A stretch of 64,000 bases of DNA, from positions 62,001 through 126,000 of the IMG/VR virus record IMGVR_UViG_3300040786_000030. One strand, written 5' to 3'. This document shows, piece after piece, positions 3,729 through 44,085 of this stretch. The position numbers and the translations under genes are program-made. Each line of letters starts with the position of its first letter. Position 1 is the first letter of the stretch. Source of the DNA: a virus. Below the pieces are notes generated by a model that searched no databases, was not told the DNA's origin, and saw only the letters and a program-made list of their open reading frames with translations.

Positions 3729-3741
3729 GTTTTCTTTTTAT

Positions 3742-3749
3742 TATAAATA
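3742..3749 (-). promoter_or_regulatory. Late-promoter-like motif TATTTATA (minus strand)
   Basis: On the minus strand this reads ATATTTATAATAAAA and ends 13 nt before the ATG of the gp13-like gene. It lies in the 34-nt gap after the glutaredoxin stop, so it would give the neck gene its own late transcript inside an otherwise early-looking antisense block. Confidence 0.5.
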
Positions 3750-3762
3750 TAATAAAAATATA

Positions 3763-5945: not shown

Positions 5946-6469
5946 ATGCGTAATAACAAAATTATACCTATAACTCGTATAAATAAATTTTTTCTGAAGA
6001 AGATTTTAACTTAGAAATTGAGATGGGTCGTGAGGCAATTGAAGGTGATGGTAACTTTACAGTTATTCTATATCAAGTTGATAGAGAATTGACTGAATAT
6101 GATAGTGTTTATGGTGAAGCGTCTAAGGATGGTATTAGGTATTCACCACCAGTTGAGCTTAAGGTTATACCAATAATGGCAGCACCTGAAAATAAGTCTT
6201 ATAATTCGTCAAATGGTGGTTTAAGACATTTACAAGATGGTCAATTGACATTTGGTATTTATGATGCACAATTAACCGAATTAAATGTAGAGTTAAATTA
6301 TGGTGATTATATAGGTTATCCAGTAACTGAAACTGAAGTACGTTATTTTAGTGTTGTTAATGATGGATTAAAAAATTATGATAATAAACATACTATAATG
6401 GGGTATAAGGGTGCTTTTCGTACCGTTGTTTGTGCGACAGTAGATGGAAACGAATTTAGAGCATTGTAA
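5946..6469 (+). CDS. Probable neck protein (gp14-like)
   Basis: About 174 residues; one frameshift near 5990 in a T-run separates the start (MRNNKIIPITRINKFF) from the remaining frame. The C-terminal half, with LNYGDYIGYPVTETEVRYF followed by a segment with paired aromatic residues and a final IMGYKGAFRT, has the order of elements of the T4 gp14 barrel (GDLIYFP and onward) by eye. The gene directly precedes the gp15-like gene (12-nt gap), as 14 precedes 15 in T4-like phages. It is shorter than T4 gp14 (256 residues). I regard the gp14 call as plausible rather than proven. Structural role is supported by the late-type motif in front of it. Confidence 0.5.
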
Positions 6470-6481
6470 ATAAATTAAACT

Positions 6482-7540
6482 ATGGGAATGCAAAAGGTTA
6501 TAGAACCAACATAAATATTAAAAATCAAAAAATAGGTCCAGAACGTAGACAAGAAATATTAGATAATATATCTGATAAAGGAACTTTTCTACCTAGAGGT
6601 GTTTTGGAAGAAGATATGGACCAAACTTTTGTTGAGTATCTGAATTCAGATACTGGGTTGTCGATTAGTATCGATGGTGCTAAAGTGCCTGTAATTTTTT
6701 TAACAATACAAAGGTGGGTTGAATTCTCTAAAACTTGGCAATTTTCAGATAAATATAAAAATATATCATTACCATTTATAACAATAATTAGAAAACCAGA
6801 TATTCAACAAGGTCAAAACCAAGCTGGCTTATGGAATATCCCAGGAAACAGAACTTACACTTATACTAAAATACCAACATGGGATGGTATAAGAGAGGGT
6901 ATGGATTTATATAAAGTACCACAACCAACATCTGTAGATTTAATGTATGAGGTTAGATTATTTACCAATAAAATGAAAGATTTAAATAAGTTCAATAGAA
7001 AAATTCAAAGAGCTTTCCAGTCAAATCAATCATATATAAACGTTAATGGTCATCCAATGCCTTTAAAGTTAGAAAGTATCGGTGATGAAAGTAATATCGA
7101 AGATTTTGAAAATAGACGATTTTATGTTCAAATGTTTGAAATGAAATTACTAGGTTATATTTTAGATGAAGATGATTATGAAGTCGTACCAACAATAAAT
7201 AGAACCATGTTAACGATTGAAGTGGAAGAAACTAGAATAGTTTCAGATATTGTATTTGATACTGATAAAAAAGGGTAACACTGCGACTTATAGTTTTGTC
7301 TTTAAACCAAAATCAGATTCTAAATTTTCATTTACCGCACAATATGATATAACATTTACACAATTAATCGATATTCAAAACATTTCTAATATTAGTATTA
7401 GAGTTAATGGTGTGCTAGTATTAAATGGGTTAATAATGTCAAACTCAATAATATTAAAGTCTAGTGACATTGTTGAAATTAAAATAATAAAAAATAACTT
7501 GGTGACAGGTATATTTAAACCAATCGGAACTACTATATAA
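6482..7540 (+). CDS. Tail terminator / proximal sheath stabilizer (gp15-like)
   Basis: About 350 residues after joining three frames (changes near 6515 and 7270). Residues around 140-230 contain TSVDLMYEVRLFTNKMKDL, then NGHPMPLKLESIGDES, then NRRFYVQMFEMKLLGYI. This parallels the T4 gp15 order: a beta strand with IYELSIFTRYEDD, a FGNDIPFKRDIKI strand, and RRIEWSLTFEVNGW. In T4, gp15 caps the sheath and tube at the head-proximal end and binds gp14. The C-terminal about 95 residues after 7265 have no T4 counterpart that I recognise and look like a small beta domain. The stop and the next start overlap as TAATG, suggesting coupled translation. Confidence 0.68.
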
Positions 7541-10323: not shown

Positions 10324-12377
10324 ATGGCAAATAGGAATAATACCTTTTATTAAAACGTTCAAATATACCAGGAAATAAACCATCATCTGGTCAAATACTT
10401 CTTGGTGAACTCGCTTTGAATACTTCAGATGCTATATTATATACTTCGGGTACAACAAGTAACTCTATATTACCAATTGGTTGGGACCGTATTTCTAGAA
10501 CTGGTGATACCATGACTGGAACGCTTTATACACCTAATTTGATATCAAATAATTTTAGTGGTGTTAGTCTTAATACAATTGATTATATAATATTTAATAC
10601 TGGTACTACAAGTGCTGCGACAGTTGCTGGTACAGTTTATTTTGATAATAAAGAAAAGCTTTATCGTATAATACATCTATTAATCAAAATGTTACAGTAA
10701 ATTTAGGTCAACAGAATTTTATTAGGGTTTTAATAATAGTGGTGTTGATATAGCTAGAGGTAAAGCGTTAGAAACATTGTCAGCATTTAGTGGTTTACCA
10801 TCTGTAACACTAGCAGTAAATAAACATTTAGGTTTTAATATTATAGGTGTTTCAGCTGAGATAATACCTAATGGTAAAGAAGGTATTGCAATTACTAACG
10901 GTATTATTAGTGATATAGCTTTAACTGGTATTACAGTTGGTCAATTAGCTTATGCTTCGGATACGGTTCCTGGTTTTTTTACTAATAGTGAAAAATATTT
11001 TTTACCCATTAACAGCCAGAACAAATAGTGTTGGTTATGTAGTTCAAACAGGTGTAACAACAGGTAAATTATTTGTTAAGATTGTTAATGAAAACCCTTA
11101 TTATCATTCACAGATATTGAAAGGAATATTTTAGAAGGTAATAATATATCAACTGGTGTGTATGAATTCAGTGGTATAACTAAAGCTAGTAATACCACAT
11201 TTAATATTGCATTGGTTAATGGTTGGGTAGCCTTAAATACTTATGCTAATGCAACAAACCCTAACACTATAAATTTAAATTTTAGTGGTCAAACTGGGTT
11301 AACAACACCATATTTAACCACTCATAGTTCAACATTTGTATCATTAAGTAGTGGTAATACGATAACTTTATCACCAAATTCACCAACACCACAAGAAAGA
11401 AGGTTAAGTATTTATTTGGGTAAAGTTATACACCCAAATAGACAAATAATTCAAAACGTAAATAACGTTACCGATTTTGATATTAGCCCTATGTCAACGA
11501 TTAGAGATTTATTTACACCAATAAAACTAATAAATACTGGTGTTATAATTACATCTAATGGTAGTAATTTATCGATTAATCAAAGTAGTGGTAATCTTTG
11601 GGGTTATGGTATCGGTTGGTTTACTGACCAGTTAAACCCTAATATGGTTTTGATTCCAAGTAACATACTAAAAACGTTTCAATATAGAACACAAACGGGT
11701 GGTACATTTTCAGACACAACTGTTATTGATAATTTATATTATGATGTTGGTGGTGTCAGAACTATTATACCTGGTAATACTGGTAGTCAATTTGGTAGAG
11801 CAACAAATCATCGTATTTATTTATTTCCAACAAACGTTGTTAGAATTCAATATGGTCAAAACTTTTATGAAACGCTTGGTGAAGCTATTGATAATATTCA
11901 AACCGAAAATTTTGTAGCAGAAAAAATATTAATGATAATGCTATTTTAATAGCCACTATTTCAGTTACTAGAAGTTGTACATCATTATCAGATTCATTAA
12001 CATCTAAAATTATATATGTATCAAAATTTGGTGAACTTGTAGGTGGTGGTGGTGGGGCTTCGATAGTAGCAGTATCACAATATAAATCATTAATATTAAC
12101 AAGTGGTACTATTTATAGTTTTACCAATTTTAACCTTGTTAATACATTATCAATAAATAAAACTATTAGTTCAGCAACTAGAGTTAATTTGAACCAAACA
12201 CCAAACCCTAATGATTTTTATGTCGTAAAAGATAGAAAAGGTGACGCACTTACAAATCCGATTACAATATCTGGTGGTTCATATACTATAGATGGAAATG
12301 CAACTGTAACTATGAACCAAATAAATAACCCATCATTAACATTTTTATTTGATGGTGAACAATATATAATAATATAA
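10324..12377 (+). CDS. Tail fibre protein B
   Basis: About 690 residues in several frames (changes near 10347, 10660, 10725, 11005, 11105, 11925). The joined N-terminus reads MANRNNTFLLKRSNIPG, then GQILLGELALNTSDAILYTS, the classic phage fibre N-terminal module found also in many siphovirus and myovirus fibres. A second typical block follows: FNNSGVDIARGKALE and IISDIALTGITVGQLAY (about residues 130-230). The distal part (11160-12377) includes SIYLGKVIHPNRQI and FYETLGEAIDNIQ. Unlike A and C it is not repetitive. No S74 chaperone or lyase motif seen. The next gene starts 1 nt after the stop, so B and C are probably one operon. Confidence 0.85.
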
Positions 12378-26004: not shown

Positions 26005-28434
26005 ATGGCAGCATTAACACCAGAAGAATTAGCTAAACTAGCGTTAGAGCAGACGAAATTAGCTACGATACAATTAAAAGAACAAGCAAAAATTAGAGCT
26101 GAGTTAAGTAATAGTCTTGATGGTTATATCAAGGGTATTAAGGATTTAAAAGCTATTCAAGATACTATAAAATATAATGAGGAAAAATATTAAAGTTAAA
26201 AAATGATGGTATTACAAGAACTGATGAGGAACTAGCAATACATGAAGCTAAACTTAAAATATTAGAAGAACAAACAAAATATTAAGAACTCAAGGTGTTG
26301 AATTAAAAGCAGCGCTTAAAACCGTAAACACAACAAATTTAGCTATGTCTAAAATTGCATCTTCAGCGGTTAAAGGTTTGGCCCAATTACCAGGTATTAT
26401 ACAAAACTCATTTGGTAAACTTAAAGGTTATGGGTTATTTGAAATGGATAAGGCAATTAAAATGTCAGCATTACAAATGGGTCTTTTAGGTAAAGAAGGT
26501 GATGAATTTAATAAGACAATGATTAGGGTCGCTGGTGATACTAACAATATTGGTGTTACTGTTGAGAAATTAAGCGCTTTACAAGCTGATTTTAATTATA
26601 ATCTAGGTAGAACTCTTATGCTTAGTGATAAGAACCTTAAAGCTATGGCAGCGATGTCAGTGGCTACAGGTTTAAGTTCTGAAGATGTAGTCAAATGGCT
26701 TCTGATATGGATGAACAAGGTAAGTCAGTATCAGAAACCAGTAAGTATTTAGAGGACAGTATGAATAGTAGTCACGCAATGGGTCTTAATGCTACTAAAG
26801 TTATTAAGAATATTCAATCAAATATGAAATTACTTAATAAAACTAATTTTAAAGATGGTGTTAAAGGTTTAGAAGCTATGGGTAAATTAGCAACTAAATT
26901 AGGTGTTAAAATGGATTTTGCTGCTGGTATGAGTGATAAACTATGGGATATCGAAGGTGCTGTAGATATGTCTGCTCAATTGCAAGTTATGGGCGGTGCT
27001 TGCTAAACTAGCTGACCCATTCCATTTAATGTATATGGCTCGTAATGATATGAAAGGTTTAACTGAAGAAATAGCAAATGCTTCAAGCATCTATGCATTT
27101 AGGTAAAGATGGTGGAATAGAAATGACTTCAATGGAAATGTCTAGACTTAAAATTGTAGCTAAAGAGGCTAATTTGGAATATGATGACTTAGTTAAATCT
27201 GGAAAAGAACTCTTTAAAATGAATAAAGTAAAACAACAGATTGGTTTTCAAGTTGACCCAGAAACTAAAGAATTTATAGCAAATACAGCCCAATTAAATA
27301 AAAAAGTAAAGCAGAAATTGATATTAAAGGTTATACTAAATTAATGTCACAATTAACATCTGCAGATGTTAATTATTTAAAAACTAAAACATTAGAAAAG
27401 CAAGTTTAGAAGAACGAGCTAAAGCATCGCAAAATTTTGACGATAAGGTTACAAATTTTATTAATATGGTCAAAACATATATGTTACCAATTATTGATGG
27501 AATTAATGATGTGTTAAGTCCAATCGTAGATAAATTTATGAAAGGTGATTTTAAAGGTGAAATACGTAAAATTGGTGAAAGTATTGGTAACTCTATAATA
27601 GCTGTAAAACCAGTTTTGACGCTATTGGTAATTTTATAAACATGTTAGGACCAGGTAAAACTTTAGGGTTATTATTTGGTGGTAAAATACTATTTGATGT
27701 GGCTTTATGGGCTTTGAATGGTGTTAGTTTAGGTCAAGCATTTTAGCAACAACTAAAAGTTTTGAAATGGAATGCCTGGTGCGTCAAGTTCATGGACACC
27801 AGGTCAATCTGGAAACGGTAAAGGTTGGTCTATGGGTAAAAGAGTTGGTGCTGGTGTTGGTCTAGGCGTTGCTGGTATGGGAGCTGATTATTTAACAGAT
27901 AAATACACTGAAGAAGGTAGTAACGCTAATATTGGTGGTAAAGCACTGTCTGGTGCTTTATCTGGCGCTGCTATGGGTGCAATGTTAGGTCCTTGGGGTT
28001 AGCTGGTGGTGCATTAATTGGTGGATTATATGGTGGTATAACAGCAGCAATGAAAGAACCAAAAAATAAAATAAATGGAGTTAATAACCCAACAATAAAA
28101 CAACCAATTAATGATGGAATATCTAAAAGTGGTTATAGTAGAGGTATTTTAGCTGGTGGGACTATTACACCAATTAGTAATAAAGATGATTTAATGTCTT
28201 TTAAATCTAAAGGTCTTATTGATAATGCTTTAAATAAAAATGCAAATGTTCCAAGTACAATGAAAATTGAGTTTGGTGAGATTAAATTTGGTGGTGAATT
28301 AAAATTAACAACACCAGGTTCTCCTGGTCAAGGTATAGATTTACTTAAAACCAAGATTTCATTAGAAACATGACTACGTTGATACATTCTGAAACACAAA
28401 ACAAATTAATGGTGGAAAAATAAAGGTTAATTAG
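26005..28434 (+). CDS. Tail tape measure protein (probable)
   Basis: About 810 residues; frame changes near 26192, 26280, 26695, 27000, 27078, 27305, 27405, 27615, 27745, 27770, 28000 and 28360. Long N-terminal helical part (LTPEELAKLALEQTKLATIQ, then Lys/Glu-rich) and a hydrophobic Gly/Ala-rich region (VGAGVGLGVAGMGADY, GGKALSGALSGAAMGAMLGP, GLAGGALIGGLYGGI), as usual in tape measure proteins whose central part can insert in membranes. Located after the tube and hub genes and before the baseplate set. By the common ratio of about 0.15 nm per residue a tail near 120 nm would be expected. I did not see a metallopeptidase motif. Confidence 0.7.
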
Positions 28435-28470
28435 TGTTGATTATCAGTTGATTAACTTTTATTTTTTTTT
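28422..28470 (+). terminator. Terminator overlapping the tape measure stop
   Basis: AAAGGTTAAT (28422-28431) pairs with ATTAACTTTT (28451-28460), with a T-rich run to 28470. Confidence 0.7.
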
Positions 28471-28495
28471 AATTATAAATTAATGTTTAAATAGC

Positions 28496-28526
28496 TTGAC
28501 ATTGTGAAATAAATTCCGTAAATTTG
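28496..28526 (+). promoter_or_regulatory. Bacteroidota-type promoter TTG-20-TAAATTTG
   Basis: TTG at 28496-28498 and TAAATTTG at 28519-28526, spacing 20 nt. Matches the Bacteroidota primary-sigma consensus (TTG around -33, TAnnTTTG around -7). Confidence 0.65.
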
Positions 28527-28532
28527 CTATTA

Positions 28533-28653
28533 TAATATAATTAAATAAATAATAAAATATATAAATAAATAATATATAAAAAATAATATAGATAAATAAT
28601 TATATATAATATAAATATATAATTAATAAAAAGGTGCTAATAGTACCTTTTTT
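28533..28653 (+). ncRNA. Candidate small RNA between promoter and terminator
   Basis: From the expected start of the 28496-28526 promoter to the strong terminator at 28628-28653 there is a transcript of about 120 nt with no ORF. The body is about 95 % A/T and would be unstructured except for the terminator stem. Either a phage small RNA or a remnant of a lost early gene. Confidence 0.3.
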
Positions 28654-28655
28654 AT
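28628..28655 (+). terminator. Intrinsic terminator, 11-bp stem
   Basis: AAAAAGGTGCT, loop AAT, AGTACCTTTTT; one G-T wobble. It terminates nothing but the candidate small RNA. Confidence 0.8.
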
Positions 28656-28714
28656 TTTAAACCAATTTCAATTATAAAGAAACATTTATTTTAGTTAAAT
28701 TTTTAGTATCATAA

Positions 28715-28730
28715 TATTTATATATAAATA
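28715..28730 (+). promoter_or_regulatory. Late-promoter-like motif in a 16-bp palindrome
   Basis: TATTTATATATAAATA is a perfect palindrome and combines TATTTATA with the T4-type TATAAATA. The identical 16-mer recurs at 39739-39754. Ends 6 nt (TATTTATA half 14 nt) before the ATG at 28737. Confidence 0.5.
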
Positions 28731-28736
28731 AATCTT

Positions 28737-31700
28737 ATGGCAATATTTTATAATACTAATAATCCAACACCATCTTCATTAAATACTATCAATAGTGTTT
28801 CAATGAATATTAGAGATTTTCTATTAACTAAAACATATCTTCAACATATCCTCAAATTGGCACAAGTATAAATGGTAGTCCTCAAATTGGTGAACCAGTA
28901 TTAGATACACAATCAAATTTATTAAATACTTACCCACATCAACAACTAACAGGTGATATTCAAGCAATTCAAAACCTCGATGTTTTAGGTAGTGTATTGA
29001 ATGGTCAAGGAATTGGGTTAGGTAGTAAAGGTATTGTACCAAACTTCGATATTAGGGGTTCTTTAGCTGGAAGAATATTAGGTGCTACAGGTCTTTTAAG
29101 CGATACTAAGATAGGAACTATAGCTGGACAACAATTAGCTTTAGCTTTAGCTAATAATGCCACATTTAACGTAGAACAGAGTTTATTTGGTAAATTAAAC
29201 GCTGCGGATAATTTATTAAGTTTAGTAAAGAATGGTACACTAGCTGGTTTTAGACCAGATTATAAAATAACAGTACCATCAAGCACTATTGGTGTTGTTG
29301 GTGAGTTCACTAGTAGAATGTTAGGGTTTACAGTACCTAGAAGTTATTTAAATGATTCTGGTTCTATATTTCAAAATGAAAATAAAGGTGTTGGTAATAT
29401 AGAACGAGCTAATAGTATGTTACTAAACACTGGTAAGGGTCAAGTTTTATCATTATTAAAAATATAAAAAAGTAACATAGGTCCAATAAAATCAGTATTT
29501 AGAAGTGGATACGCACCAGGTTTTACAAATAATAAAGGTGTTAGACAAATTAGTGAAGAAGAAAGTAATGTTTATGCTTTTGATAAATTAGGGCAAAATA
29601 TTAATCTATTAAGTAATTCTATTGATGGTATAATACCAGATTTAATGCATAATAGTGAAGATAATGTCAGTAATTATGGTTTTACTAGTCCAGAAATGAA
29701 TGGTACTGGCCCTTATGGTATATTGGATATGATAATAGAAAAGTTAGTGATATCGGTTTTACTTGGACGACAAATAATGGTGATGCTGTAAATACAACAA
29801 CTGATAATGATGAAATTATTGGTGATAAAAAATCGTTATTGGTAAAACACAACAATTATTCAATAGTAAAGGTTTGAAAAGTATGATATCAGTAAAAGGT
29901 GATATGAAAGCTGTATCTAATCAATTACAAACAACAAATGGTGGTGGTTTATCTAAAGGTAGTGCGGTATTAAGTGGTTCAATGTATAAAAAGATGGTAC
30001 ATATGTTGGTAATAATTCATCAGCTAATGATACATACTGTAGAAGTTGGACAACATTAGATAGATACGATACTGTTAATAAATTAATTAGAAATAATGGT
30101 TTAGATGAAAATTCTGTATATGGTAAGAAAAATATACCATATAGGTTTCAAACTGAGGGTAGTGTATTAGATACTAATGGATTCCCTAAAATAGCACCAT
30201 ATAGAGATGACCAACCAGAAGACCCTAAAAAATTTATGTTTTCACTTGAAAATTTAGCATGGTCTGATAATATTGCTGATTTACCTCAAAGTGAAATTGG
30301 TTCTGGTGATATCGCTAATGATAAAAAAAGGTAGGATTATGTGGTTTCCACCATACGACATCACGTTTAGTGAAAATAATTCAGTAAATTGGGAATCTAC
30401 AAATTTTATAGGTAGAGGTGAACCAATATATACGTATAATAATACTGAAAGGTCAGGTACATTAGGTTTTAAGGTAATTGTAGACCATCCTAGCAACGTA
30501 AATGCTTTTAGAGGTGATAAGGGTCCAAGTGATAATTATGTTGCCTCATACTTCGCTGGTTGTGTTGAACCAAATAAATTTTGGAGAAATAAATTAACAA
30601 TTAATCAAACTAATCAATTAATTAATGAAAATACTAATACACCACAATCAGCTGTAATTACAAAGAAAAAGCTCCAGATATAAAAATTATTTTTTATTTC
30701 CCAAATGATAATGCTATAATACCAAATAATTATGAAAATGGTTTAAGTGGACCGTTAATTACTGATTTAATAGATTACACTAATAACCCACGTGGAGATG
30801 GATATGGTATTGATTTATATAAATCAGATGGTTTTACATCTGGTATTCATCAAAAAGTGGGTTGGTATGATAATACTAATTTTGGTTTAAACGCTTCTAG
30901 TCAATATTCTACTGGTGTTGTTTTTAATGGTGTCACATATATGGGTTTAAGGGATGTAAGTAGTTTAATGGTGGCTTTAAATACGTATATTAATGATGAA
31001 TGTCCAAGTTGTGTTGTTAATATATCTGGATATGCTAGTGAGCAAGGTGTTGAGAGTTCAAATAATCGATTAATTAAAAGTAGAGGTGAATATATTACAA
31101 ATATACTTAAAGGTGGATTATTTAAAAAACTAACAGATTCTGATAAAAATAAAAGGTTTAAAATTGTTGATGGTGGTATTATAAAATCTGCTGGTTGTAA
31201 AGTTGGAGTTGAAGAAGATATTGACCAAAAGGCTTGTAAAGAGGCTAGAAGGGTTGAAGTAACATTTAAATTTGATGCAAATATAGCTGCAGAATCTATA
31301 GTTAAACCAAATATTAAAATTAAAACTGAAAATAAAGTGTTAGTCAAAAATAATTAACGAGTATTATAATGAAACATTATATTTTGATAGGTTAAAAGAA
31401 AGTGACCCTTTGTTTTTGATTCATTTAGGGAGAAAATTAAATATTTTCACCCAGCATTTCATTCAACTACACCAGAGGGTTTAAATTCAAGACTTAACTT
31501 TTTTATTACAATGTACGAGACAAGGACCAACATCAGAATTACAAGGGCCAAATAATTTAGCATTTGGTAGAGCACCTGTATGTATTCTTAGAATTGGTGA
31601 TTTTATAATACTAAAATTGTTATTGATAATATTGGAATTACGTATGAACCTTTAGTTTGGGATTTAAACCCAGAAGGTATTGGGGTACAACCAATGATAG

Positions 31701-32378
31701 CTGTTGTAGATATAACATTTAAATTTTTTAGGTGGTTCTGCACTTATGGGTCCAATGAATAAGTTACAAAATGCGTTATCATTTAACTATTTTGCTAATA
31801 CTCAAGTATATGACCCTAGAGCTGATTATTTATCTAAAAAAAGACCTAGCTATAAAACCAAGACTAAAGATGGTAAAGAGATAACGGTAAATGCGAAAGA
31901 AACAATAAGTGGTTATTATATTAATGATGGTCAAAAGGTGGATTCTAGGTTAGAACTACCTAGACCAGAAATTGTTGTTGATGATATTGACCAAATTAAA
32001 ATTAATGATGAAATTTTTACTGGTTTAGAAATAACACCAACTGATGTTACTGATGTTGATAAAAAATTAATATTAATGTTAGTTTTGTCGGTATTAGAAC
32101 GTATGAACCAGAAATTGCTGATGGTACTGTTTATTTAAAATTACAACACCAGTTGCGTTAACAAGTGAATATAGTTTTAAATTAGTGATATTTGATACTA
32201 AAAATAACCCAAAAGATATTGGTATTGGTAAATTAAGTATTAGTACTACTGAACAAGTATTTGCATTTAACACAATATTAAATATTGATAATTTAGTATT
32301 ACGTCTGACGTTAATACTTATCAATATAAATTAGAAATAACAAATTTAAAACCAGTTTCTGGTACTATAAGTTTATAA
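28737..32378 (+). CDS. Large baseplate protein with embedded OmpA-like domain
   Basis: About 1,210 residues after joining frames (changes near 28832, 29465, 29722, 29838, 29990, 30330, 30670, 31348, 31405, 31500, 31605, 31730, 32080, 32140, 32305). The middle (about 30920-31290, residues 725-850) is an OmpA/MotB-type fold: LMVALNTYINDECPSCVVNI, SGYASEQGV, NNRLIKSRGEYITNIL and the closing ARRVEVTFKFD. Such domains bind peptidoglycan non-covalently. The last third has PAFHSTTPEGLNSRLTFLLQ, VWDLNPEGIGVQPMIAVVDI and LQNALSFNYFANTQVYDPRA, a block I associate with conserved baseplate proteins of large Bacteroidota phages. Followed 18 nt later by the gp53-like gene. Role: baseplate component able to anchor to the cell wall (inference). 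Confidence 0.75.
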
Positions 32379-32396
32379 TAATAAAAATAATTTAAG

Positions 32397-32717
32397 ATGG
32401 CTAAATATTATGACCGATATTCAAAATTCAGAAACAATGCTGACATGAAACCAGTACCTGGAATTACTATTCAAGAAATTGGTTCAGATAAATACAACAC
32501 ATATAAACAAGGAGTCACTAGACTTGACAAATTGAGTAATATGTACTATAATAACCCATATGGTGGTTGGTTAATTATGTTAGCTAACCCTGAATTTGGT
32601 GGTTTAGAATTTAATATTCCAAATCAAACAGTTATCAGAATACCATTCCCTTTCGATAGTGCAATTGAAAGATATATTATAGAAGTTACAAATCACCAAA
32701 AATTATATGGAGAATAA
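32397..32717 (+). CDS. Baseplate wedge protein (gp53-like, LysM-like)
   Basis: A 106-residue protein in one intact frame. TRLDKLSNMYYNNPYGGWLI plus MLANPE, then IPNQTVIRIPFP, is the LysM-like pattern of gp53 wedge proteins (xxDxLAxxYYGDPxxWWxIxxAN ... GxxLxIP). Starts MAKYYDRYSKFRNNADMKPV. T4 gp53 is 196 residues, so this is the minimal core. It is followed by the hub gene whose ATG lies 11 nt inside its 3' end. Confidence 0.75.
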   Translation: MAKYYDRYSKFRNNADMKPVPGITIQEIGSDKYNTYKQGVTRLDKLSNMYYNNPYGGWLIMLANPEFGGLEFNIPNQTVIRIPFPFDSAIERYIIEVTNHQKLYGE

Positions 32718-35700
32718 TAGAATAGGTTGCCGTTCTGGTAGAACAAAAATAGTAGACCCAAATAAATTTGATAATCAATCATCATCCAATAATGTACCAG
32801 TACCATTAGAAGATTTGAATATTTCAGTAATATTACAAACGTTTAAAAGGTAGAACAGTATTAAGTGCTGGTCCCAAGACTAGCTCTGTTGAAAGTACGG
32901 AAGATTTAACTGTTAATTTTATTAATGGTTCTAATATTAATGGTAAAAAGTATTAACAACTAATTATAGTGATTTAACGACCATTTTTTGGTGATTCTGA
33001 AACAGAGGGGTTAGGTATTACTAATATTAGTATAGATTTTAATAGTTCTATGTCACCTATAGTCGTTATTGATTTTATAGATGTTAGAGGTAGCGCTATT
33101 TTTCAAAATGAGGCAAACTTAAAAAATGGTACTAATAAATACAGTACTTTTTCCAATTACCATATCCATTATTTGAATTAACGATTAAGGGTTATTATGG
33201 TAAACCAGTTAAATATTGTTTACACTTAACTAAATTTAATTCAAAATTTAATTCACAAACTGGTAATTTCGAAATAACCACAAATTTTATGGTTACACCT
33301 TTGCTATGTTATCCGATATGCTTATTGGTTATCTTAAAGCTATACCGTATACAAAGATAGGTGCTGAAAGATATGCTATTGTTAATAATGCTAGAGCAGC
33401 TGTTAATCCACCATTACCAGAGATTTTAAACTTAAATGAGTTAATGATTAAAATCTCTAACATTAATGAAGAAATAGAAAAGTTTCAGCGGATGACCCTG
33501 ATTCTGCTTTATTAGGTAATATCGATAATAAGAAAGATATACTATTAACAATAGAAAACAATGTAAGAGCACTTGGTATTGATTTAGACACTAGAGGTGA
33601 TACAAATGAAAATTATGAATACATCATATCAACACCTATTAATATAAAAGAAAATAAATCAATAATAGATAAATTCACAAAAATAGTATTACCAAATATT
33701 GAATTATTTAATAAAGATAATCTTGTTGGTTTAGATGTGAGTGCATTTAAAATACCTAATTTAGATAGTCCAAATAAAAATTGGGTTGGTATAGATAAAA
33801 ATAATATAATTAGAAGTACTGATATTGGAGATGTAAACCTTTTAAAATATATAAATAATAACTCTAAAAATATTAGTTTATTAGATAACACTAAATTTGA
33901 TGCATGGGATTTAACTGGTATATATGCTACTATAAACTCGGCTAAAAATGGGTTAGAAGTTAACTATGCTTCAGCTAAAAGAGTTTAGCGATAAGTGTAC
34001 AATCTAAAATTAGAGAAGTTATAGGGTTTGACCCAACAGTTAGAAATATTATTGAAGTATTTACAACAGCAGTTGAGGTTTTATGGAAACTATTTTACTG
34101 TATCTAAAAGTGCTGAAGAAGATGTTAATAAACTTAGAGAAAACAATTAGCCCCAAAATTTAAAAGTAAAAAAAATACTGATTTAAAATACTTACTGAAA
34201 TTTTCCATGGCCAGATTATAGAGAAAGTACTGAAGTTGGTTTACATGAGGCTTATACTGAAAAATATTTAGGTGCGACTAATGTTTTAACTACACCTACT
34301 GATGTTCATGAATTAAATTTTATTGATGACTTATTACGAGCTTTTCTTATCGCACAACAAAAGTTGATGAAGCTATAAATAACACTAATAAAGAAAATTG
34401 GATACCAGTTAGCCCTGTAGATACCCGTTTATTTAATATTGGTAAAGCACCATATTCTAGAATTGAAGGTACTAGTAAGGCTGAGGTGATAAAATTATTA
34501 TTAATTAGGGTATGACTTTTTTAGGTTATACTAATAGTAATTTAACAGGTAAAGAAATTGATACTATGGCTGATAGTGAATTTAACGATGTAATGTTAAA
34601 TTTAAGTGATGATTCCTTGTCAACAGTAAAACTAGTTTAAGTACTTTAACTTTAGATGATTTTACTAGTGTTAAAAGTGATGTTAAAATAGATGATACTA
34701 TTAAAAAAGATAAATCAATAGTATCTTATGATGATAAAAATGAGGTGTATTTTTATCACTATATAACTTATAGTAATAATGAAAAATTACCTAACACTAT
34801 AGATAATTATACTATAGGCACAAGTGTTATACCTATTGATAGTGGTTTTAGTTCTGATACAAATTGGCCACTTTCTGATGAATCAGCACTGGAGTTTAAA
34901 AGTGATTATAATTTATTTTTAACTAACGTTAATGGTGGTAACCCTAATATAGGTAGTAAAGCTAATGGTGGTGTTTATTTTAAATTAATAAAACCTTCTG
35001 ATTTTAATACAACAGTATCATTACCAGATACTTTTATCGCTACCACAAGTAGTAAATTTATATTAGAAAAATTAATTGGTAAAATTGGTTCAAATCCACA
35101 AGCTGAAGCTGCTGGTTTTAATGCTTTTGCTGGTAAATACGGGATTCAAGAATTTGAAAACTTAGATTATGGTGAACCTGATTTAGATGGTCTACCATTG
35201 ATGTATGTATTCTATGCTGATGGTGTTCACTCACCATCAGAAACTAGATTAAGTGGTAAATATGGAATAACTTATAATAAATCTGGATTAGCTTATCCTA
35301 GAACAAATAATGACGTTACTGATTATGATTTTAAAGATAGATTTAAATTTGTTGATTTTAATTATATAACTAAAAACATTATAAAGTCTAATGAACACGA
35401 TAATTATACAAAAAATAGAGCGCTTTTAATGAAAGACTTAAAGGTGATGATAAAATAATGTATCCATATGTTAATCAAATTATAAGAGCAAAAGCTAGTG
35501 TTATTTCAGTACGTAGTGAAGAATCACATAGTTTATTTGGTTCTAGATTATATTATGGTCAAGAACAAAGTGGATTACATTACCCTACTGAAACACCTGA
35601 TGAAAAATATGAAACTAATAACATAGCTAAAGCATTATTATTTTTAGGTACTTTTACCTTGGAATGGTTTACCGTTCGAGTTAAATGAAATCAGACACTT

Positions 35701-38700
35701 ATTTAATATTAGTGGTTTTGTACATGCACCTAAATTATGGACTGTTTATGTTGGTGGGTTAATCTGGAGACATCAATATTATGAAAAAATAGTGTTGACC
35801 CAATTAGGTGGTTTAATAGTAATGGTACTTCATTTGTAAAACAAATAAATGATATAATTTTTAAACCACCAGGTCATGCCTATCAATATAATAAATTATA
35901 TTATGATGATAAAGGTGATATATATAAAAATTACCAATTGAATTACTATCAGGTGATAATAATGTTTTGATGTATTTATTGATGCATTTTTAGAATTTGT
36001 TAATGGACCTTGGGAAACTTTAAAGACAAATTGTGAAATAATTAAAAGTGGTAGTTTAGTTGATTTTGACGAAATAATCCATCATTTCTATGATGAAGGT
36101 CGTTACGATGGTGATTTAGATGTGTTAGAAACTGTGATAAGAGCACAATTACCTAAACTAATTAATTATGATAAATATAAAATATTTTCACCAGTTGAAA
36201 TAGGTAAAGGTAGAGAATTTTTCTTAGAATTTAATAGTGATGCTGTTGGTTATAACCCGTCTAAAGAAATTGTTAAATTATTAACAGAGGAAATAATAAT
36301 ATCAAATTCTTCATATAGAACATTTATAAATGATACTAGTAATACTAATAAAATTTACCTATAACAGTAAATCCTGATTATTTTGAAAGATATTTTAACC
36401 GTATAATTAAGAATTTCTTACCAAATATAACAGCACAAACAACAATTAAAAAAGAACAAGAACAAGAAATTTTGGTACGAGTAATGAAGAAATAATAAAA
36501 TTACAATTATATAGAACATGTAAAAATATATATGATAAATGGTTAGGTGGTACAACAGATGTTGATAATTTAATATTCCAATGTGGTGAATCTGGAACTA
36601 GAAATAATAAAGATTCTGAATTAGCAAACTTTTATCGACCAGGTGACAAACCAAGATTAATTGATAGTTTTAGGTTTGTTGATAGGGCTTTTGGTGATAT
36701 AGGTGATAAATTATACGTTAACCCAATACCTGTTAATGACTATTTAATAAATAGCCCAAATACTAGTTTCTATGATGCTGTGGGTCACTTGTTAACATCA
36801 AATAATTTTAATTTCATAGCTTTACCTACATTTATTAACTATAATGATGATAAGGAATTAAACGCTATGTTTGAACCATTTGAAAATTATGATAAAGCTG
36901 TTGAAGATGGTATTTGTGGTCCATCATTTGTTTGTATGTATGTTGGACAAACATCAAAACATTTAGATTTTGGTGGTTCTAATTATAGTAATGATGGTAT
37001 TGATTTTCATTGTAATAACGATGGAAACCTTATTGACGTGCCATTAGATTATTCAGCCACAGCTAATGAATATGATAATGATGTAGCTGTTTTTAACGTT
37101 AATTATTCACAACAAAACCAAAATATATTTAAAGATATTACTTTGGACCAAAATGAATTTACCGAAACTGATGAGTCATTACAAGTAACTGATATGATTG
37201 CAAGTAAAGGTACTGAAAATAACAGAACATTAGCTGGTCAAAATATTTATAATGTTTATTCGGTTAGAAGTTATAAAGCTGAAGTTGAAATGTTAGGTAA
37301 TGCTATGATTCAACCAATGATGCATTTTCAATTAAATAATATTCCAATGTTTCATGGTGGGTATTTAATTACACGTGTTAAACATAACATAAAACCAAAC
37401 CACATGACAACAAGTTTTACTGGCGTTAGGGTTAGGTACCCAAAGACTAAATTACTTGATGGTGCTGAGTTTTATATGAGCATGCTCGATTCGTTAAATC
37501 TAACAAATACAATTGGTGGTGGTGGTGGTAGTAGTAGCGTATCACCAATAGTACAAGTAATTAAACGAAATGGTGGTGTTAACGGTGATTTTGCCAAGGG
37601 TAATATTAAAATCCAATAATACCAATATTAAAACAATGGTGTACATTGGGATATTGGTGGTGATAAATTAAAAATATTATGAAGCTCAAGCACCATTAAT
37701 TGAAATGTTAAATGATTGGGTTACTTGGATGAAAAGTAATGGATTTAAGGGTAATAATGGAAATTATATTTCAGTTATTAGTGGGTATAGAACAGTAGAA
37801 ACACAAGAAGAAATTAAAAATCACGCACCTAATAGTTCAGCAATACCTGGAACATCTATGCATGGTTGGGGTATTGCGGTAGATTTAATTTTTATAATAA
37901 AGATGGTAAGTTAGTTAAAAACTATATTAATAATAGCAAACCAAACTTAACTGAAGGTTATAATTTAAAAACTAATCCAGCGCTAGAGTGGTTATATGAC
38001 CATTCATATCAATATGGTTGGATAATACCAGAGGGTTTAAGAAATGACTTTGGTGTTGAAGAATTTTGGCATTTGAGTATCATGGTAAGTCAGCACTTTG
38101 TATTTTAAAACAAAGACCATTAATAAAGGGTCATTTATGTGTATTAACTAACCCTATAAAACCATCAGTAATAAACCCTCAAACCCAGGTACTCCAGCTA
38201 AAGAAGCTGATTTAAGTAACTGTAATTATGTATATGTGGGTAATGGTGATGGTTTACCAGTATCTTCACATTTATTTAATGGTGATTTGGCACAAAATCA
38301 ATTAGAGGTTAAGAATTTCTTTAAAGCTTTAGGTTTAACAAAATTACAAACAGCTGCAATTATGGGGAATATTCATTATGAAAGTGGTTATGACACATCT
38401 TCAAAATATCTAGAAAAATCGGGTCATTATAGTAGGGGACTTTTCATGTTTAACACTAGATATTATCAAGCTAGTGACTTTGGTACGACACTAGAATCAC
38501 AATTAAATTATGTGTTAAAAATTGGGTATTATAAAATTGGCTTAAATATGACCCACAACAAAGTGTTATACAATTAACATTTTATTCGCTAGAGATTTGG
38601 AAAGGTGTTATAATTGTCAAGAATTAATACCTTTGAAAATAGTGATAGCGGTAAAGGTAGAATTGGTTTTGCTATAGACACCCATAATAGGTTTAATAGT

Positions 38701-38724
38701 GCTGGGGATAAATTATTTTGGTAA
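32707..38724 (+). CDS. Giant baseplate hub protein with M15 peptidase and tail lysozyme domains
   Basis: About 2,000 residues if the joined frames are one gene; start MENNRIGCRSGRTKIVDPNK overlaps the gp53-like gene. Residues about 60-1630 are hub-like structure, with GYLKAIPYTKIGAERYAI, PWDYRES-like loops and, near 37260-37450, EVEMLGNAMIQPMMHFQLNN, IPMFHGGYLITRVKHNI, typical of tail hub cores. An M15 (VanY-type) peptidase domain follows (about 37620-38110): GTSMHGWGIAVD and EEFWHFEYHG supply the two His, the Asp and the catalytic Glu. Then a phage tail lysozyme domain (Phage_lysozyme2 type, about 38230-38700): TKLQTAAIMGNIHYESGYD with the catalytic Glu and HYSRGLFMFNTRYY. It is the functional counterpart of T4 gp5/gp27. 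About twenty frame changes, for example at 32850, 32950, 33300, 33490, 33990, 34150, 34360, 35450, 35680, 36360, 37615, 37640 and 38540. Continuity between hub and enzymes at 37600-37690 depends on two or three indel corrections. Confidence 0.75.
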
Positions 38725-38748
38725 TTTAATAATAAAATAGTATATTTG
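38718..38748 (+). promoter_or_regulatory. Bacteroidota-type promoter TTG-20-TATATTTG
   Basis: TTG at 38718-38720 and TATATTTG at 38741-38748, spacing 20. The -33 element overlaps the stop of the hub gene. The ATG at 38753 is only 4 nt beyond the -7 box, so the mRNA would be leaderless or nearly so, or translation starts at a later codon. Confidence 0.65.
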
Positions 38749-38752
38749 CAAA

Positions 38753-39710
38753 ATGATAAAAATTGCAAACATTGTTTCAGAGAATACGGTAAATGTTTCA
38801 GAAATTTTAATGTGGTAAAGACTATGGGTGAAGTAATTCATGGTCTACCTACATTAATTATTGATTATAACTATGTGGAGAAGAATTACCCTAATTTTGA
38901 TATTGGGACTAATTGTTTATCTAAAGATTTATATTGGACGTTTAAAAAAACCAAGACAGGGATAAACACGCTGAAGATTTAAAATTTTTATAAATAAAAT
39001 TTATGTTGACTTACTTAATAATGTACCATATTTTTTTGTTGATTTAATTAACTACCAATCAAAAACAATAATTAAAGTAATTAAAAAATTAATAATTTTA
39101 AAAAATTATATACATATCGTAATGGTGAAATGTTATACCTTTATGGTGATAATATAATTTTGGTATTGATTTAAAATTATTAAAATTTATGGGGATAAAC
39201 ACCGATAAGGTATTAAATAAAATTAAATTAAAAGTACGGTGTTTTATGATGAAATTGAGATACTTATTGAATATAAAATGTTTTGATTGAAATCGATAAT
39301 CAAATCAGATACATACCTTATTTATTATCAATATTCAATGAAAAAAACATTACTATTAGCAACATTCATATTCCATAAGAGGCTTGAGTGGTTCTTAAAT
39401 TATTTAGAAGTTAATTTTAAAATAACAAAAGAAAAGTTTTATCTATAAAAAATTTAGATGATAATACTAAATTAATTATCACTTTTAGGGTAGATATTAA
39501 TAATGGTGAACATTTAAATATTAAAACATTATTCCCTAATGCGATATTAATACATAAAACGGTAACGCCATTTATACCATAAACGCATTAAATAAAATGA
39601 TTGATAAAATGGTTGGTGATTTGACAATTAATAATTCGGAAATTAAAATAGATTGGAGTGAATATCAAAATAAAATGATTTTAACTAATAGAGGTGAATT
39701 AACCTTTTAA
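38753..39710 (+). CDS. Unknown protein with its own host-type promoter
   Basis: About 315 residues after joining frames (changes near 38815, 38965, 39120, 39160, 39235, 39285, 39340, 39375, 39440, 39560). Reads MIKIANIVSENTVNVSE and FNVVKTMGEVIHGLPTLIID, then NYPNFDIGTNCLSKDLYWTF; C-terminus contains KLIITFRVDINNGEHLNIKT and NKMILTNRGELTF. It is the only gene of the 28-40 kb stretch with a host-type promoter, so it is probably expressed early, unlike its structural neighbours. No family recognised; no membrane segment or nuclease motif visible. Starting at 38753 gives a nearly leaderless message. Confidence 0.6.
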
Positions 39711-39738
39711 ATATAAGTAGGGTTTTAACTAATTGGGA

Positions 39739-39754
39739 TATTTATATATAAATA
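39739..39754 (+). promoter_or_regulatory. Late-promoter-like motif in a 16-bp palindrome
   Basis: TATTTATATATAAATA, identical to 28715-28730, ending 21 nt before the ATG at 39776. Confidence 0.5.
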
Positions 39755-39775
39755 ACGTAATTTAAAATATACATT

Positions 39776-39961
39776 ATGACAACAGAGAATGAAAATAAAA
39801 ATGAAAAATAAATAAAGCTAAAAGTACATTTTAGGTAGTGAAAATACAAACCCAGATTTAGATTGTTCATCAGGTGTTTGTGTAATTAAAGGTGATAAAA
39901 GCCTTGTTGAAAGAATAAACAAAAAATAATTACTGAAGATGGTAGACAATTATTATTTTAA
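39776..39961 (+). CDS. Small conserved phage protein
   Basis: About 61 residues with frame changes near 39812 and 39833: MTTENENKNEK, then NPDLDCSSGVCVIKGDKSLV and ERINKKIITEDGRQLLF. The CSSGVC pair of cysteines could bind metal or form a disulfide. Sits 5 nt before the next virion-type gene under a late-type motif. Function unknown. Confidence 0.55.
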
Positions 39962-39966
39962 TATAA

Positions 39967-40709
39967 ATGAAAAAGAAATTTAACCCAGAATTATTAAAAG
40001 AAGAACTTAAAAATTTAGACTTATTTCAGAATATACTTTTGAAACTAAGGGCTATAATTCAGATAACCCATATACTGATGATAAATTATTATATGGTAAC
40101 TCTACGATAGATGAAGTTGATGAAAATCCAGATGCTGCTGATGAAATAGGTAAAGATTTAGGTTTACCACCTGAACAAGACATGGGTGGGATGCCAGATA
40201 CAAATGGAGCACCAGAACAAAACCCTGGAAATGCTATTGATGAACCAGCTCCAGAACCAGCTCCAGAACCAGCTCCAGAACCAGCTCCAGAAAGTGATGG
40301 TGTTGAGGTTGATGTTACTTCACTTGTTAATTCTAGTGAAGAAGCTAAAGAATCAGCCGATAGTGCTAGTGAAAAATCAGACATGATATTACAAAAAATT
40401 ATAGATTTGGAATCACGAATCAGTAATATGGATAAAATCACTAATAAAATTGAAAACCTAGAACAAGAAATAATCAAAAGAAATCCGACAGAGGTTGAAA
40501 AATTAGAAATGCGTTCATTAAATTCTTTCCCTTATAGTCAAAAAATTAACTGACTATTGGGCAGATAAAGAAGGTCAATATGATGTTATGGGTGATAATA
40601 AGCAAGAATATATTTTAACCAAAGATGATGTTAATTCAGATTATAGTGATAATAACATAAAACAAAGTTTTACTGTTAAAACGATGAATACGAAGAGGAA
40701 GATATTTAA
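39967..40709 (+). CDS. Acidic structural (virion) protein with Pro-Ala-Pro-Glu repeats
   Basis: About 247 residues; frame changes near 40020, 40548 and 40680. Starts MKKKFNPELLKEELKKFRLI (after the first frame change) and has four exact PAPE repeats, a coiled-coil segment (EEAKESADSASEKSDMILQK, then LESRISNMDKITNKIENLEQ) and a folded end with KLTDYWADKEGQYDVMGDNK and EYILTKDDV. Layout suggests an extended scaffold-like or internal virion protein. A long open frame on the opposite strand (40052-40477) is only its shadow. Ends just before a terminator. Confidence 0.65.
40242..40289 (+). repeat. Four 12-bp repeats (PAPE)
   Basis: GAACCAGCTCCA four times in a row without a change, encoding EPAP. 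A slippage-prone hinge in the virion protein. Confidence 0.95.
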
Positions 40710-40717
40710 ATAAATTT

Positions 40718-40745
40718 AACCCCTTATAATTAAGGGTTTTTATTT
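40718..40745 (+). terminator. Intrinsic terminator
   Basis: AACCCCTTA, loop TAAT, TAAGGGTT, then T-rich. Separates the virion gene from the replication promoters. Confidence 0.8.
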
Positions 40746-40767
40746 TATAAAATAAAAAAAATATGAC

Positions 40768-40798
40768 TTGTTATTTCTTAAAATTAATAGTAACTTTG
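40768..40798 (+). promoter_or_regulatory. Bacteroidota-type promoter, distal of a tandem pair
   Basis: TTG at 40768-40770 and TAACTTTG at 40791-40798, spacing 20. Confidence 0.6.
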
Positions 40799-40842
40799 TA
40801 AAAAATATCTTAAAAATTATTAAAAAAAAATGAAAATACTAC

Positions 40843-40871
40843 TTGACTTTAATAAATAATTAGTATATTTG
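40843..40871 (+). promoter_or_regulatory. Bacteroidota-type promoter, proximal of a tandem pair
   Basis: TTGAC at 40843-40847 and TATATTTG at 40864-40871, spacing 18. About 50 nt of leader precede the ssb ATG at 40927. Two promoters in tandem point to strong early expression of the replication operon. Confidence 0.7.
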
Positions 40872-40926
40872 TACAAGAATAATAATATAATAAATAACAT
40901 AATAATTAATATAATAACTGAACACA

Positions 40927-41831
40927 ATGAAAAATGGAAAATCAGCTTTAGAAGCAATGTTAGCACAATACGAAACGAATAACAAACCAAAATATGAAAA
41001 AAACAGAAAGTTCTTTTGTTTTAATAAAACGCATATTTTACGATTTACGACTTACCTGATGGTGTAGATTCAATGACAAAAGAAATTAGACTATTACCTA
41101 ATTTCAATGGTGGTTCCCATTGGTAGAATATCATGGACATACAGCACCACTAGAAGGTAAAAAATAAAACATTTGCATGTTTACAACACGAAAAGGCACA
41201 GCTTGCCCATTCTGTGAAGCTAGAGAAGAATTATTATCTAGTGGTGATGCGCAAGATAAAGAATTTGCGAAAAAATACTACCCTAAAAAATTATATGTTG
41301 CTAAAGTAATCGATAGAGCACATGAAGACCATGGTGTTAAATATTGAGATTTAACCATGATTTCCGTAAAGAGGGTGTTTTTTGATAAAATTGTAGGTAT
41401 AAGTACAAACCTTAAGAAAAACAAAGATTTATCAAATCCATTAGAAGGTCGTGATTTATCTATTTTTATTAATAGAAACCAACAAAAATTCCAGTAATTA
41501 CAACATTGTCACATCAAGACCCAACAGTTTTATCTGAAGATAAAGAATTAATGGATACATGGTTAGCTGATGAAGGTACATGGGAAAGTGTATTTCCAGT
41601 TAAATCTTATGAGTATTTAGAGATTATCGTTAGAGGTGACACACCAGTTTGGGATAGAGAAAATAAATGTTTTGTTAGTAAAGAAGCACAAGTTGAAGGT
41701 GAAGATAATTCAGAAAAACTTTAGACTCTGAATTAACACTACAAGTTGAAAATGTTAAATCTAATGTTAAAGCAGCTGACGTTGTTTTAAAACCAGTAGT
41801 TGAAGAAGAAGAAGACGATTTACCGTTTTAA
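40927..41831 (+). CDS. Single-stranded DNA-binding protein (gp32-like)
   Basis: About 300 residues; frame changes near 41010, 41035, 41120, 41170, 41345, 41385, 41487 and 41722. Features of T4 gp32-type SSB: basic N-terminus (MKNGKSALEAMLAQYE), a zinc-knuckle-like HEKGTACPFCEAREELL, WRFNHDFRKEGVFDKI in the OB fold, and an acidic C-terminal tip EEEEDDLPF that in SSBs contacts other replication proteins. The gene heads the replication operon behind two promoters. A weak terminator follows, which would raise its yield relative to uvsX and later genes. Confidence 0.85.
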
Positions 41832-41855
41832 TAAATAAATAAAAATAATTAACAT

Positions 41856-41886
41856 AAAAAAAAGGTGAGAAATTGCCTTTTTTTTA
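41856..41886 (+). terminator. Weak intrinsic terminator / attenuator after ssb
   Basis: A-run plus GGT, 9-nt loop, GCC plus T-run of eight. Stem of few G-C pairs, so read-through into uvsX is likely. Confidence 0.55.
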
Positions 41887-41918
41887 TCTAAAATAACGAA
41901 AAATAATTAAGATTTAAA

Positions 41919-43015
41919 ATGTCTCAAAACCAGAAAAAAAACCAATAACAAAACCATTTGATAATTCAGATTTTAAAAAAGTCTAGGTTTAGGTAAGCAA
42001 GTAATAAAAGAAAAGAAATAACTTGGATACCGTTTAAAAGCTTTCACGATGCTGTTGGTGTACCTGGTGTGGCTAGAGGTTATACAACACAATTTAGAGG
42101 TTTTCAGATGTTGGAAAATCTACTGGTATCTACGAATCGTTAGCTGGTAATCAAAATTAGGTGATTATTCTATTATAATTGACACTGAGGGTAGTTTTAA
42201 TTGGGAGCACGCTAAATTAGTTGGTTTTAATTATCAAGAAATATTTGATGAAGAAACTGGTGAGATTATAGATTATGATGGTGACGATTTTATGTATTTT
42301 GGTGGTAGAGACTTATTAAATTTATATCAAAATTTTGATTATAAAGATGCTAAAATGAAAACAACACCATTAAGATATGTTCCAGTTGTTGAAGATATTG
42401 CACGTTTAATTAATGAGATTTTAGATAAACAAGAAAAGGTGAATTCCCACATAATATTACATTTTATGGGATTCAATAGGTTCTATTGGTTGTTTTCAAG
42501 GTGCAGTATCTAATACTAATAATAATCAATGGACAGCTGGTGCGTTAAAAGAGAATTTGAATCAATATTAAATTTCAGAATACCAGATTCTAGAAGATTA
42601 TCATCAAAGTATACCAACACATTTGTTGCTGTACAAAAAATATGGTTAAGACCAAATGCTGTTGGACAACCAACAATTATGCATAATGGTGGTGAAGGGT
42701 TTAAATATGGTGTTAGAATGATTTTTCACATGGGTGGTAAATCAACATCATCAACTAAAAAATTAGAAGCTGTAAATGCTGGTAGAAGCTATAATTTTGG
42801 TGTCACAACTGAAATACAATGTGTTAAAATCACGTTAATGGTATTGAACTAATGGGGACTATTTGTTCAACACCACATGGTTTTCTTAATCCATCAGAAA
42901 AAATGCATACGTTTCAGCAAATAAGGGTTTTATCAATGCTAAACTAGGTACTAATTTCTCTGATTTTGAAGTTGTCGAGGAAGAATTAGACACTGATGCT
43001 TACTCAAAAGATTAA
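41919..43015 (+). CDS. RecA-like recombinase (UvsX)
   Basis: About 365 residues in several frames (changes near 41932, 41985, 42020, 42105, 42155, 42465, 42530, 42835, 42900). Walker A is GFSDVGKST after GYTTQFR, Walker B region as YSIIIDTEGSFNWEHAKLVG, and FYWDSIGSIG is the second aspartate block. HMGGKSTSSTKKLEAVNAG and IELMGTICSTPHGFL form the C-terminal part. These match UvsX-type recombinases of T4-like phages, which load on SSB-covered single strands for recombination-dependent replication. Position directly after ssb fits. Confidence 0.85.
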
Positions 43016-43052
43016 AAGTAGTAAAAAAAGTATTAACCATTAAAGTTTTAAA

Positions 43053-44085
43053 ATGGGTACAAAACCACCAAAAGAGGTGAAAAAATAGAAAAAAACAAAA
43101 CACATTAGTAGATGGAAATGCCCTATTTAAAACGGGCTTTTCGGTGCTAAGAATGTCTACAACAAAGATGGTCAACACATAGGTGGACTATATCAATTTT
43201 TAACAATACTAAGAAAAATGTTAGTTGATGATTTATATCACAGAGTTTATGTATTCTGGGATGGTAATCTAAGCGGTAAACTTAGATATGATTTTATAAA
43301 CCATATAAAAGTGACCGTGGTAAAGACTTTATAAATGGAACTCACCCAATAGATGCTTCCGAACTATCTCAACGTAAAATACTTTGGGAATATTAACGAA
43401 ATGTATATCAGACAACTAAAACATGAAATTATCGAAGGTGATGATTTTATAGCTTACTACTGTCTAACAAAAAAAGAAAACGAAAAGATTACCATATGTA
43501 CTAATGATACTGACATGGCCCAATTAATAAATGAAGATGTAAAAATTTATTACCTACATTTAAAGAATTATGTTGATAATGTCAATTATTCTTCGTACTT
43601 TAGCCATCATCAGAGCAATGCTCTTTTAGTTAAATCAATAATAGGTGACACTGCTGATTCTATAAAAGGTATAAAGGGTGTGGGTGAATCAACACTACTA
43701 ACTAACTTTCCAGAATTAAAAGAAAAGAGTTGACTATTGATGAGATAATAAAACAAGCTAAGGTTATACAAGAAAATAGAAAACAAGGTAAGAAACCACC
43801 TCTTAAAGCGTTGACAAATATCATTGAGTCTATAACGGATGGTGTACAAGGAAAAGATATATATGCAATTAATAAAAAATTGATAAATCTTAAAGAACCT
43901 TTGATGACTAAAGATGGTATAAGGCAATTAGAAGATTTAATAGAAGGTACGTTAGATTCTTCAGGTAGAGAGTTAAAAACGTCATGGCTATGATGAAACG
44001 TGATGGTATAGATAAAGAAATTGGTGATTACAGATACCCTGATTATCTGGTACCATTTAAACAATTAGTAACAAGAGAAAAATAG
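43053..44085 (+). CDS. 5'-3' exonuclease / RNase H (FEN family, T4 Rnh-like)
   Basis: About 340 residues; frame changes near 43085, 43135, 43300, 43375, 43728 and 43982. Metal-site motifs: LVDGNALFK (N-terminal Asp), EGDDFIAYYC, CTNDTDMAQLI, and the helix-three-turn-helix GDTADSIKGIKGVGEST. This order defines the FEN/RNase H family that removes RNA primers and flaps at the lagging strand. The C-terminal part (about 43740-44085) is helical, as in T4 Rnh (305 residues). Between uvsX and dnaB, in keeping with a replication role. Confidence 0.88.

Follow-up and report, generated by a model that had tools for sequence, protein, structure and literature searches.

The combination of two wall-degrading activities within one tail-tip protein is already known from phi29 gp13, a tail-knob protein (PDB 3CSQ/3CSR) that likewise joins a lysozyme of the same family as the one described here to a zinc peptidase in a single polypeptide. 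However, gp13 belongs to a Gram-positive podovirus, in which it is a knob protein of its own and far smaller, and its lysozyme precedes a peptidase of the M23 type, whereas at the locus analysed here an M15 peptidase comes first and both enzymes are fused to a core of ~1,600 residues. T4 gp27 and gp5 have in common with this locus a central baseplate location, a role as entry lysozyme (which we infer here from gene order) and T4-like replication genes, but they are two proteins with a GH24 lysozyme only and without a peptidase, rather than one polypeptide with two enzymes. The OB and beta-helix parts of gp5 were not seen in this protein, which gave no Pfam matches to the gp5 parts (OB domain, GH24 lysozyme, beta-helix), and the record gave no PF00959 match. 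Virion lysins of Gram-negative phages typically have a single catalytic domain, whereas endopeptidase virion lysins are almost exclusive to Gram-positive phages, among which two catalytic domains are frequent (PMC6116005). Domain shuffling has been reported for endolysins, tail fibres, spikes and other proteins (Smug et al. 2023, PMC10684548), and there, too, enzymatic domains have been exchanged recently while the other half stayed conserved; in contrast to that study, the text of which does not contain the word 'hub', we describe a structural core that is 99–100% identical while up to three entry enzymes change. As far as we found within open-licence PMC literature, the fusion of such enzyme pairs to a hub-like core of this size, in probable Bacteroidota phages, and a cassette cleanly replaced among phages that are otherwise nearly identical are new.

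The locus lies in a 64,000-nucleotide stretch of an IMG/VR virus record (the window). Our preferred reading, to which we give a probability of about 0.7, is that its long gene encodes the tail-tip hub, or a hub-like protein at the centre of the baseplate, of a large T4-like phage, probably contractile and probably infecting a Bacteroidota host, with entry enzymes fused at the C-terminus. The features in the window are as follows.

32397..32717, plus strand: gp53-like baseplate wedge gene, 106 aa (L001 copy: PHROG 7145 'baseplate wedge subunit', E 3.2e-4)
32707..38724, plus strand: hub-like gene, 2,017 codons plus stop in contig L001, with 38 indels here (L001 alignment)
32707..33484, plus strand: conserved N-terminal domain, tube/baseplate-like (P0001 residues 9-270; conservation over 53 sequences, best fold match E 0.03)
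33485..36375, plus strand: variable middle region (residues 271-1239; conservation profile)
36376..37532, plus strand: conserved C-terminal core domain (residues 1240-1625; 52% mean column identity over 47 sequences, PHROG 52)
37693..38107, plus strand: slot 1, predicted VanY/M15 zinc peptidase (Pfam VanY 3.3e-12; LdcB 4ox3)
38311..38721, plus strand: slot 2, predicted phi29-gp13-type lysozyme (Phage_lysozyme2; Pfam 2.9e-5; family profile against 3csr)
38741..38748, plus strand: putative promoter box TATATTTG, Bacteroidota-type (site with ATG 38741-38755; present in most relatives)

As printed, the stretch 32707-38724 contains stops throughout its single-frame translation, and the list of open reading frames holds only fragments of it. 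We therefore compared it with L001 (IMG/VR 3300040771_000255), a near-identical contig retrieved with a core fragment as query, which is 99.1% identical to the window over 16 kb, the window having 3 mismatches, 128 missing bases and 12 extra ones. The missing bases fall mostly (105 of 128) in homopolymers of 3 or more, and this indel pattern is long-read-type error. The hub-gene stretch alone has 37 bases missing, 1 extra and 1 mismatch relative to L001, that is, 38 single-base indels, whereas in L001 it is one ORF from ATG to stop, of 2,017 codons, the ends of which map exactly to window positions 32707 and 38724. Complete homologous single ORFs of 1,664–2,378 codons (stop to stop) were also present in many of the relatives fetched. 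Across 37590-37700, where the window has 5 indels, the L001 frame is open, and a stop followed by a new start at 37600-37690 was looked for and was absent from L001 and from the fused relatives. The single frame of about 2,000 residues that the preliminary description had joined from the fragments was thus borne out, as was its statement that the protein is larger than T4 gp5 and gp27 together (2,017 aa compared with about 575 for gp5 plus 391 for gp27). That the open frame is artefactual and two or three genes are in fact present is hardly conceivable: the many stops in the window and the split versions that occur in relatives would fit such an arrangement, but it is contradicted by L001, which is open throughout, and by the concentration of the indels in homopolymers; an artefactual single frame was ruled out by L001 and the relatives together. 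Over window positions 28001-44000 as a whole, we observed about one indel per 115 bases relative to L001, mostly missing homopolymer bases, so that split-gene or frameshift readings elsewhere in that interval need comparison with L001-like records.

The setting of the gene is that of a T4-like tail locus. The gp53-like gene adjoins it directly upstream, overlapping its start by 11 bases, and a tape-measure-like ORF (PHROG 794, 1.9e-5) lies further upstream; downstream are genes for ssDNA-binding, UvsX-like, exonuclease and DnaB-like proteins, and the record also holds gp25-like and weakly gp19-like genes. No match to a tail sheath was found in this indel-ridden record. In L001, a 1,218-aa ORF (1918-5574) upstream of the gp53-like gene had no PHROG or Pfam match; relatives also contain a long ORF nearby, the size of which differs among them and reaches about 1,770 codons.

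The identity of the core as a hub, claimed earlier from the sequence alone, held up in part. Gene position was favourable, the best solved folds for the N-terminal half were mostly tube or baseplate proteins (E 0.03 or worse), 22 of 47 core sequences matched the 'tail protein' family PHROG 52 (best 1.3e-3) and one family member matched a YQBQ-like protein; model confidence was low over the hub part. Similarity to T4 gp27 was not significant, with hhalign E values of 0.88 and 0.36 (PF09097/PF09096), and gp27 homology is thus not supported by profile; gp27 itself scores 465 bits with its own Pfam model. The profile comparison with gp27 does pair an equivalent C-terminal motif, without significance. 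The core motif GNAMIQPMMHFQLNN lies at 37296-37340. Because gene order and weak matches stand beside a non-significant gp27 comparison, we call the protein hub-like, and it is quite probably the actual hub. A different central baseplate or tail-tip protein, not of the gp27 type, that would still display the enzymes at the tip is unlikely; the non-significant gp27 and PDB comparisons and a variable middle region of 969 residues without known counterpart speak for it, but the weak matches all point to tube or baseplate folds, PHROG 52 tail proteins and the one YQBQ-like protein, and the gene order points the same way. Among named phages, nothing matched the core, and the only matches were to the M15 domain (Listeria, Synechococcus). 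Two BFVD entries, A0A8S5LAH1 ('Lysozyme [Myoviridae sp. ctPuP5]') and A0A6J5L837, resembled the N-terminal half in structure (3.6e-23 and 8.8e-26), and members of the family are therefore already deposited in databases, annotated as lysozyme or uncharacterised; we found no description of the fusion or the cassette for them.

The C-terminal core domain ends at a Gly-rich linker, GGGGGSSS (37515-37538), and the first enzyme domain follows. Pfam VanY (PF02557) matched residues 1702-1813 of P0001 with 46.8 bits, above the cut-off of 25, and the zinc ligands (HxxxxxxD and ExWH, with the catalytic Glu) are complete in this copy, in SMHGWGIAVD (37855-37883) and EEFWHFEYHG (38058-38086), and kept in 27/27 VanY tails. 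An AlphaFold model of residues 1101-2025, built from an alignment with 33 relatives, had pLDDT values mostly of 75–94 over M15, blocks mostly of 70–94 over both enzyme domains, and poor values over the core. Foldseek with the slot-1 model returned the LD-carboxypeptidase LdcB (4ox3, E 1.2e-5), that is, the M15 fold. Profile and model together support slot 1 as an M15/VanY zinc peptidase of predicted activity.

For slot 2, Phage_lysozyme2 (PF18013) scored 24.7–27.3 bits, just under its cut-off of 28.2, with the 24.7-bit match at P0001 residues 1883-1934. The family matched in 16 of 53 tails (best 8.9e-29), a profile of 13 lysozyme members matched the N-domain of phi29 gp13 (3csr) at 1.4e-14 with the Glu aligned, and Foldseek with the slot-2 model returned phi29 gp13 (3csq, 1.4e-3). 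The catalytic Glu, within GNxxxES, is present in 13/13 lysozyme relatives, aligned with that of gp13, and lies in this copy in NIHYESGYD (38368-38394). GLxQW is near-invariant in the relatives and reads GLFMF here (MF for QW), so that predicted activity is less certain for this copy than for its relatives; the motif, which is not known to be strictly required, was not taken as defining. The evidence thus supports a phi29 gp13-type lysozyme domain of predicted activity. Both the complete zinc site and the lysozyme domain with its Glu had been proposed in the preliminary description, and each was supported; every motif that it named was found where it had been placed.

On the preferred reading, the hub-like protein would carry the cassette into the periplasm upon tail contraction, where the peptidase may trim or open peptide cross-links and the lysozyme may cut glycan strands, giving a local opening in the peptidoglycan for the tube. 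A role of the cassette mainly in lysis, as an endolysin whose fusion to the hub is incidental, is very unlikely. A search of the 193-kb record for five families, with VanY found as positive control, gave no separate endolysin, but the indels of the record and the few families searched make this negative weak; moreover, the fusion is to a large structural-type protein beside tape-measure and baseplate genes, and virion proteins that carry peptidase and lysozyme domains for entry have precedents. It is also possible, if rather doubtful, that the fused protein is cut after assembly, as T4 gp5 is, so that the virion would carry a separate hub, peptidase and lysozyme and the fusion would serve fixed-ratio delivery. 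Linkers rich in Gly/Ser and Pro/Gly set the core, M15 and lysozyme apart, and some relatives have a stand-alone enzyme gene in this position: in L010, L013 and L044 the hub stops after the core and a separate ORF of 321–344 aa follows (overlapping or 6 nt on; GH19-like in L010, 6.6e-5), and L038 and L046 encode their second enzyme in an ORF of its own. Against cleavage, the linkers vary freely and hold no conserved or identified cleavage site.

The preferred reading, of entry enzymes fused to a hub-like core, extends to a family in which the enzymes vary. We compared 53 distinct tails, taken after core residue 1585, using local profiles and Pfam, and found 21 architectures; everything past residue ~1,620 is, on this comparison, an exchangeable cassette. 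The commonest were M15 with Lyz2 (11) and M15 with D16 (5, and 2 more that add an alpha/beta-hydrolase-like third domain), followed by DUF2272 with Lyz2 (4) and M23 with Hydrolase_2 (4); other tails combined M15 with D7, D17, Hydrolase_2, GH24 or D63 and SGNH, or had DUF2272 with Hydrolase_2, D49 with or without SGNH, Lyz2 with SGNH, and further combinations. The labels DUF2272, SGNH and alpha/beta-hydrolase of some members come from local module profiles seeded from few Pfam matches. A peptidase (M15, M23, DUF2272) usually occupies slot 1 and a lysozyme-like module or Hydrolase_2 usually slot 2, with an esterase-like domain occasionally in slot 3. In tails with both of the first two slots filled, this order (peptidase-like, then lysozyme-like or Hydrolase_2) is kept nearly always, a rule that is in part provisional because several slot-2 modules have no secure family. 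Nothing secure was found in Pfam or PHROGs for D7, D16, D17, D28, D63 and D70, nor in PDB for D16 and D17, whereas D49 matched an endolysin PHROG (9.7e-13) and, weakly, SLT; the term glycosidase for all of these slot-2 modules therefore reflects their place and motifs. In L059 and L067, the third domain after M15 and D16 (tail residues about 480-657; GFSGGG/GFSAGG) is alpha/beta-hydrolase-like, a motif-based label, and the tails of L036, L055, L063, L064 and L068 end in SGNH-type domains. Such third-slot domains are possibly de-acetylating or esterase entry enzymes.

Aligned sequences of close relatives demonstrate precise swaps of the C-terminal modules with the core unchanged. L058 and L062 have 96–99% DNA identity in both flanks and core proteins 99–100% identical, and they differ almost only in the stretch 10735-11990 compared with 10735-11909, which is the whole cassette to a few bases past the stop; L055-L057 carry the same cassette as L058. 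L035 (also L033 and L034) and L037 have core identities of 90–98% and an identical slot 1 (100%), slot 2 being the one part replaced, and the pairs L042/L050, L054/L048 and L004/L002 show the same pattern of exchange at 75–80% core identity. A core tree of 47 rows required no fewer than 29 architecture changes (19 for slot 1, 24 for slot 2), whereas shuffled labels required 35.4 and the minimum is 19; architecture labels are thus only partly clustered. Such swaps would arise by homologous recombination between co-infecting phages, with the conserved core as one flank and the conserved promoter and next gene as the other; in relatives, the swapped cassette has its right border between the stop of the hub gene and the promoter box.

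This box, TAnnTTTG, was found within 60 nt upstream of the post-hub gene at 46 of 48 loci, against an expectation of 2.8; its distance to the ATG is usually exactly 4 nt, and 38 loci have a TTG 17–23 nt further up. In the window, TATATTTG stands 4 nt ahead of the next gene's ATG. With the 4-nt spacing, it occurs almost only before the post-hub gene, and within the window there was no enrichment of TAnnTTTG before genes in general. The consensus of the Bacteroides housekeeping promoter is TAnnTTTG at -7 and TTTG near -33, and the -7 element has also been confirmed in Flavobacterium (PMC7366714). The spacing of the box suggests a leaderless or nearly leaderless mRNA. Genome collections gave a single relative, a 286-kb contig from a Bacteroidales bin with a 1,748-aa hub that ends in an M15_3-like domain, and this relative and the box together make a Bacteroidota host likely.

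A phage group, probably on diderm Bacteroidota, thus appears to fuse two and sometimes three predicted wall-active domains to a hub-like protein and to swap them. One tentative reading, to which we give somewhat less than an even chance, is that the C-terminus is a fast-diversifying entry-enzyme cassette, in which peptidase, glycosidase and esterase modules are recombined on a constant tail machine under selection by inhibitors of tail enzymes or by change in host peptidoglycan. In T4, the gp5 tail lysozyme is blocked by Spackle, which has a part in superinfection exclusion (PMC7677548), and escape from Spackle-like exclusion by rival phages, or from host lysozyme inhibitors, is therefore a testable idea for what may drive the exchange. 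The matched pairs, in which the same phage body carries different entry enzymes, offer a natural means to ask what selects tail enzymes, the candidates being host wall chemistry, host inhibitors and exclusion by other phages, and the family is a source of compact peptidase-glycosidase combinations (predicted activities). With this cassette as query, only one copy was found in the record in a search for silent copies. In L010, a 380-aa ORF (5949-7091), TnpB-like by eye with a CSNCG...CNNC zinc finger, is inserted after the hub operon.
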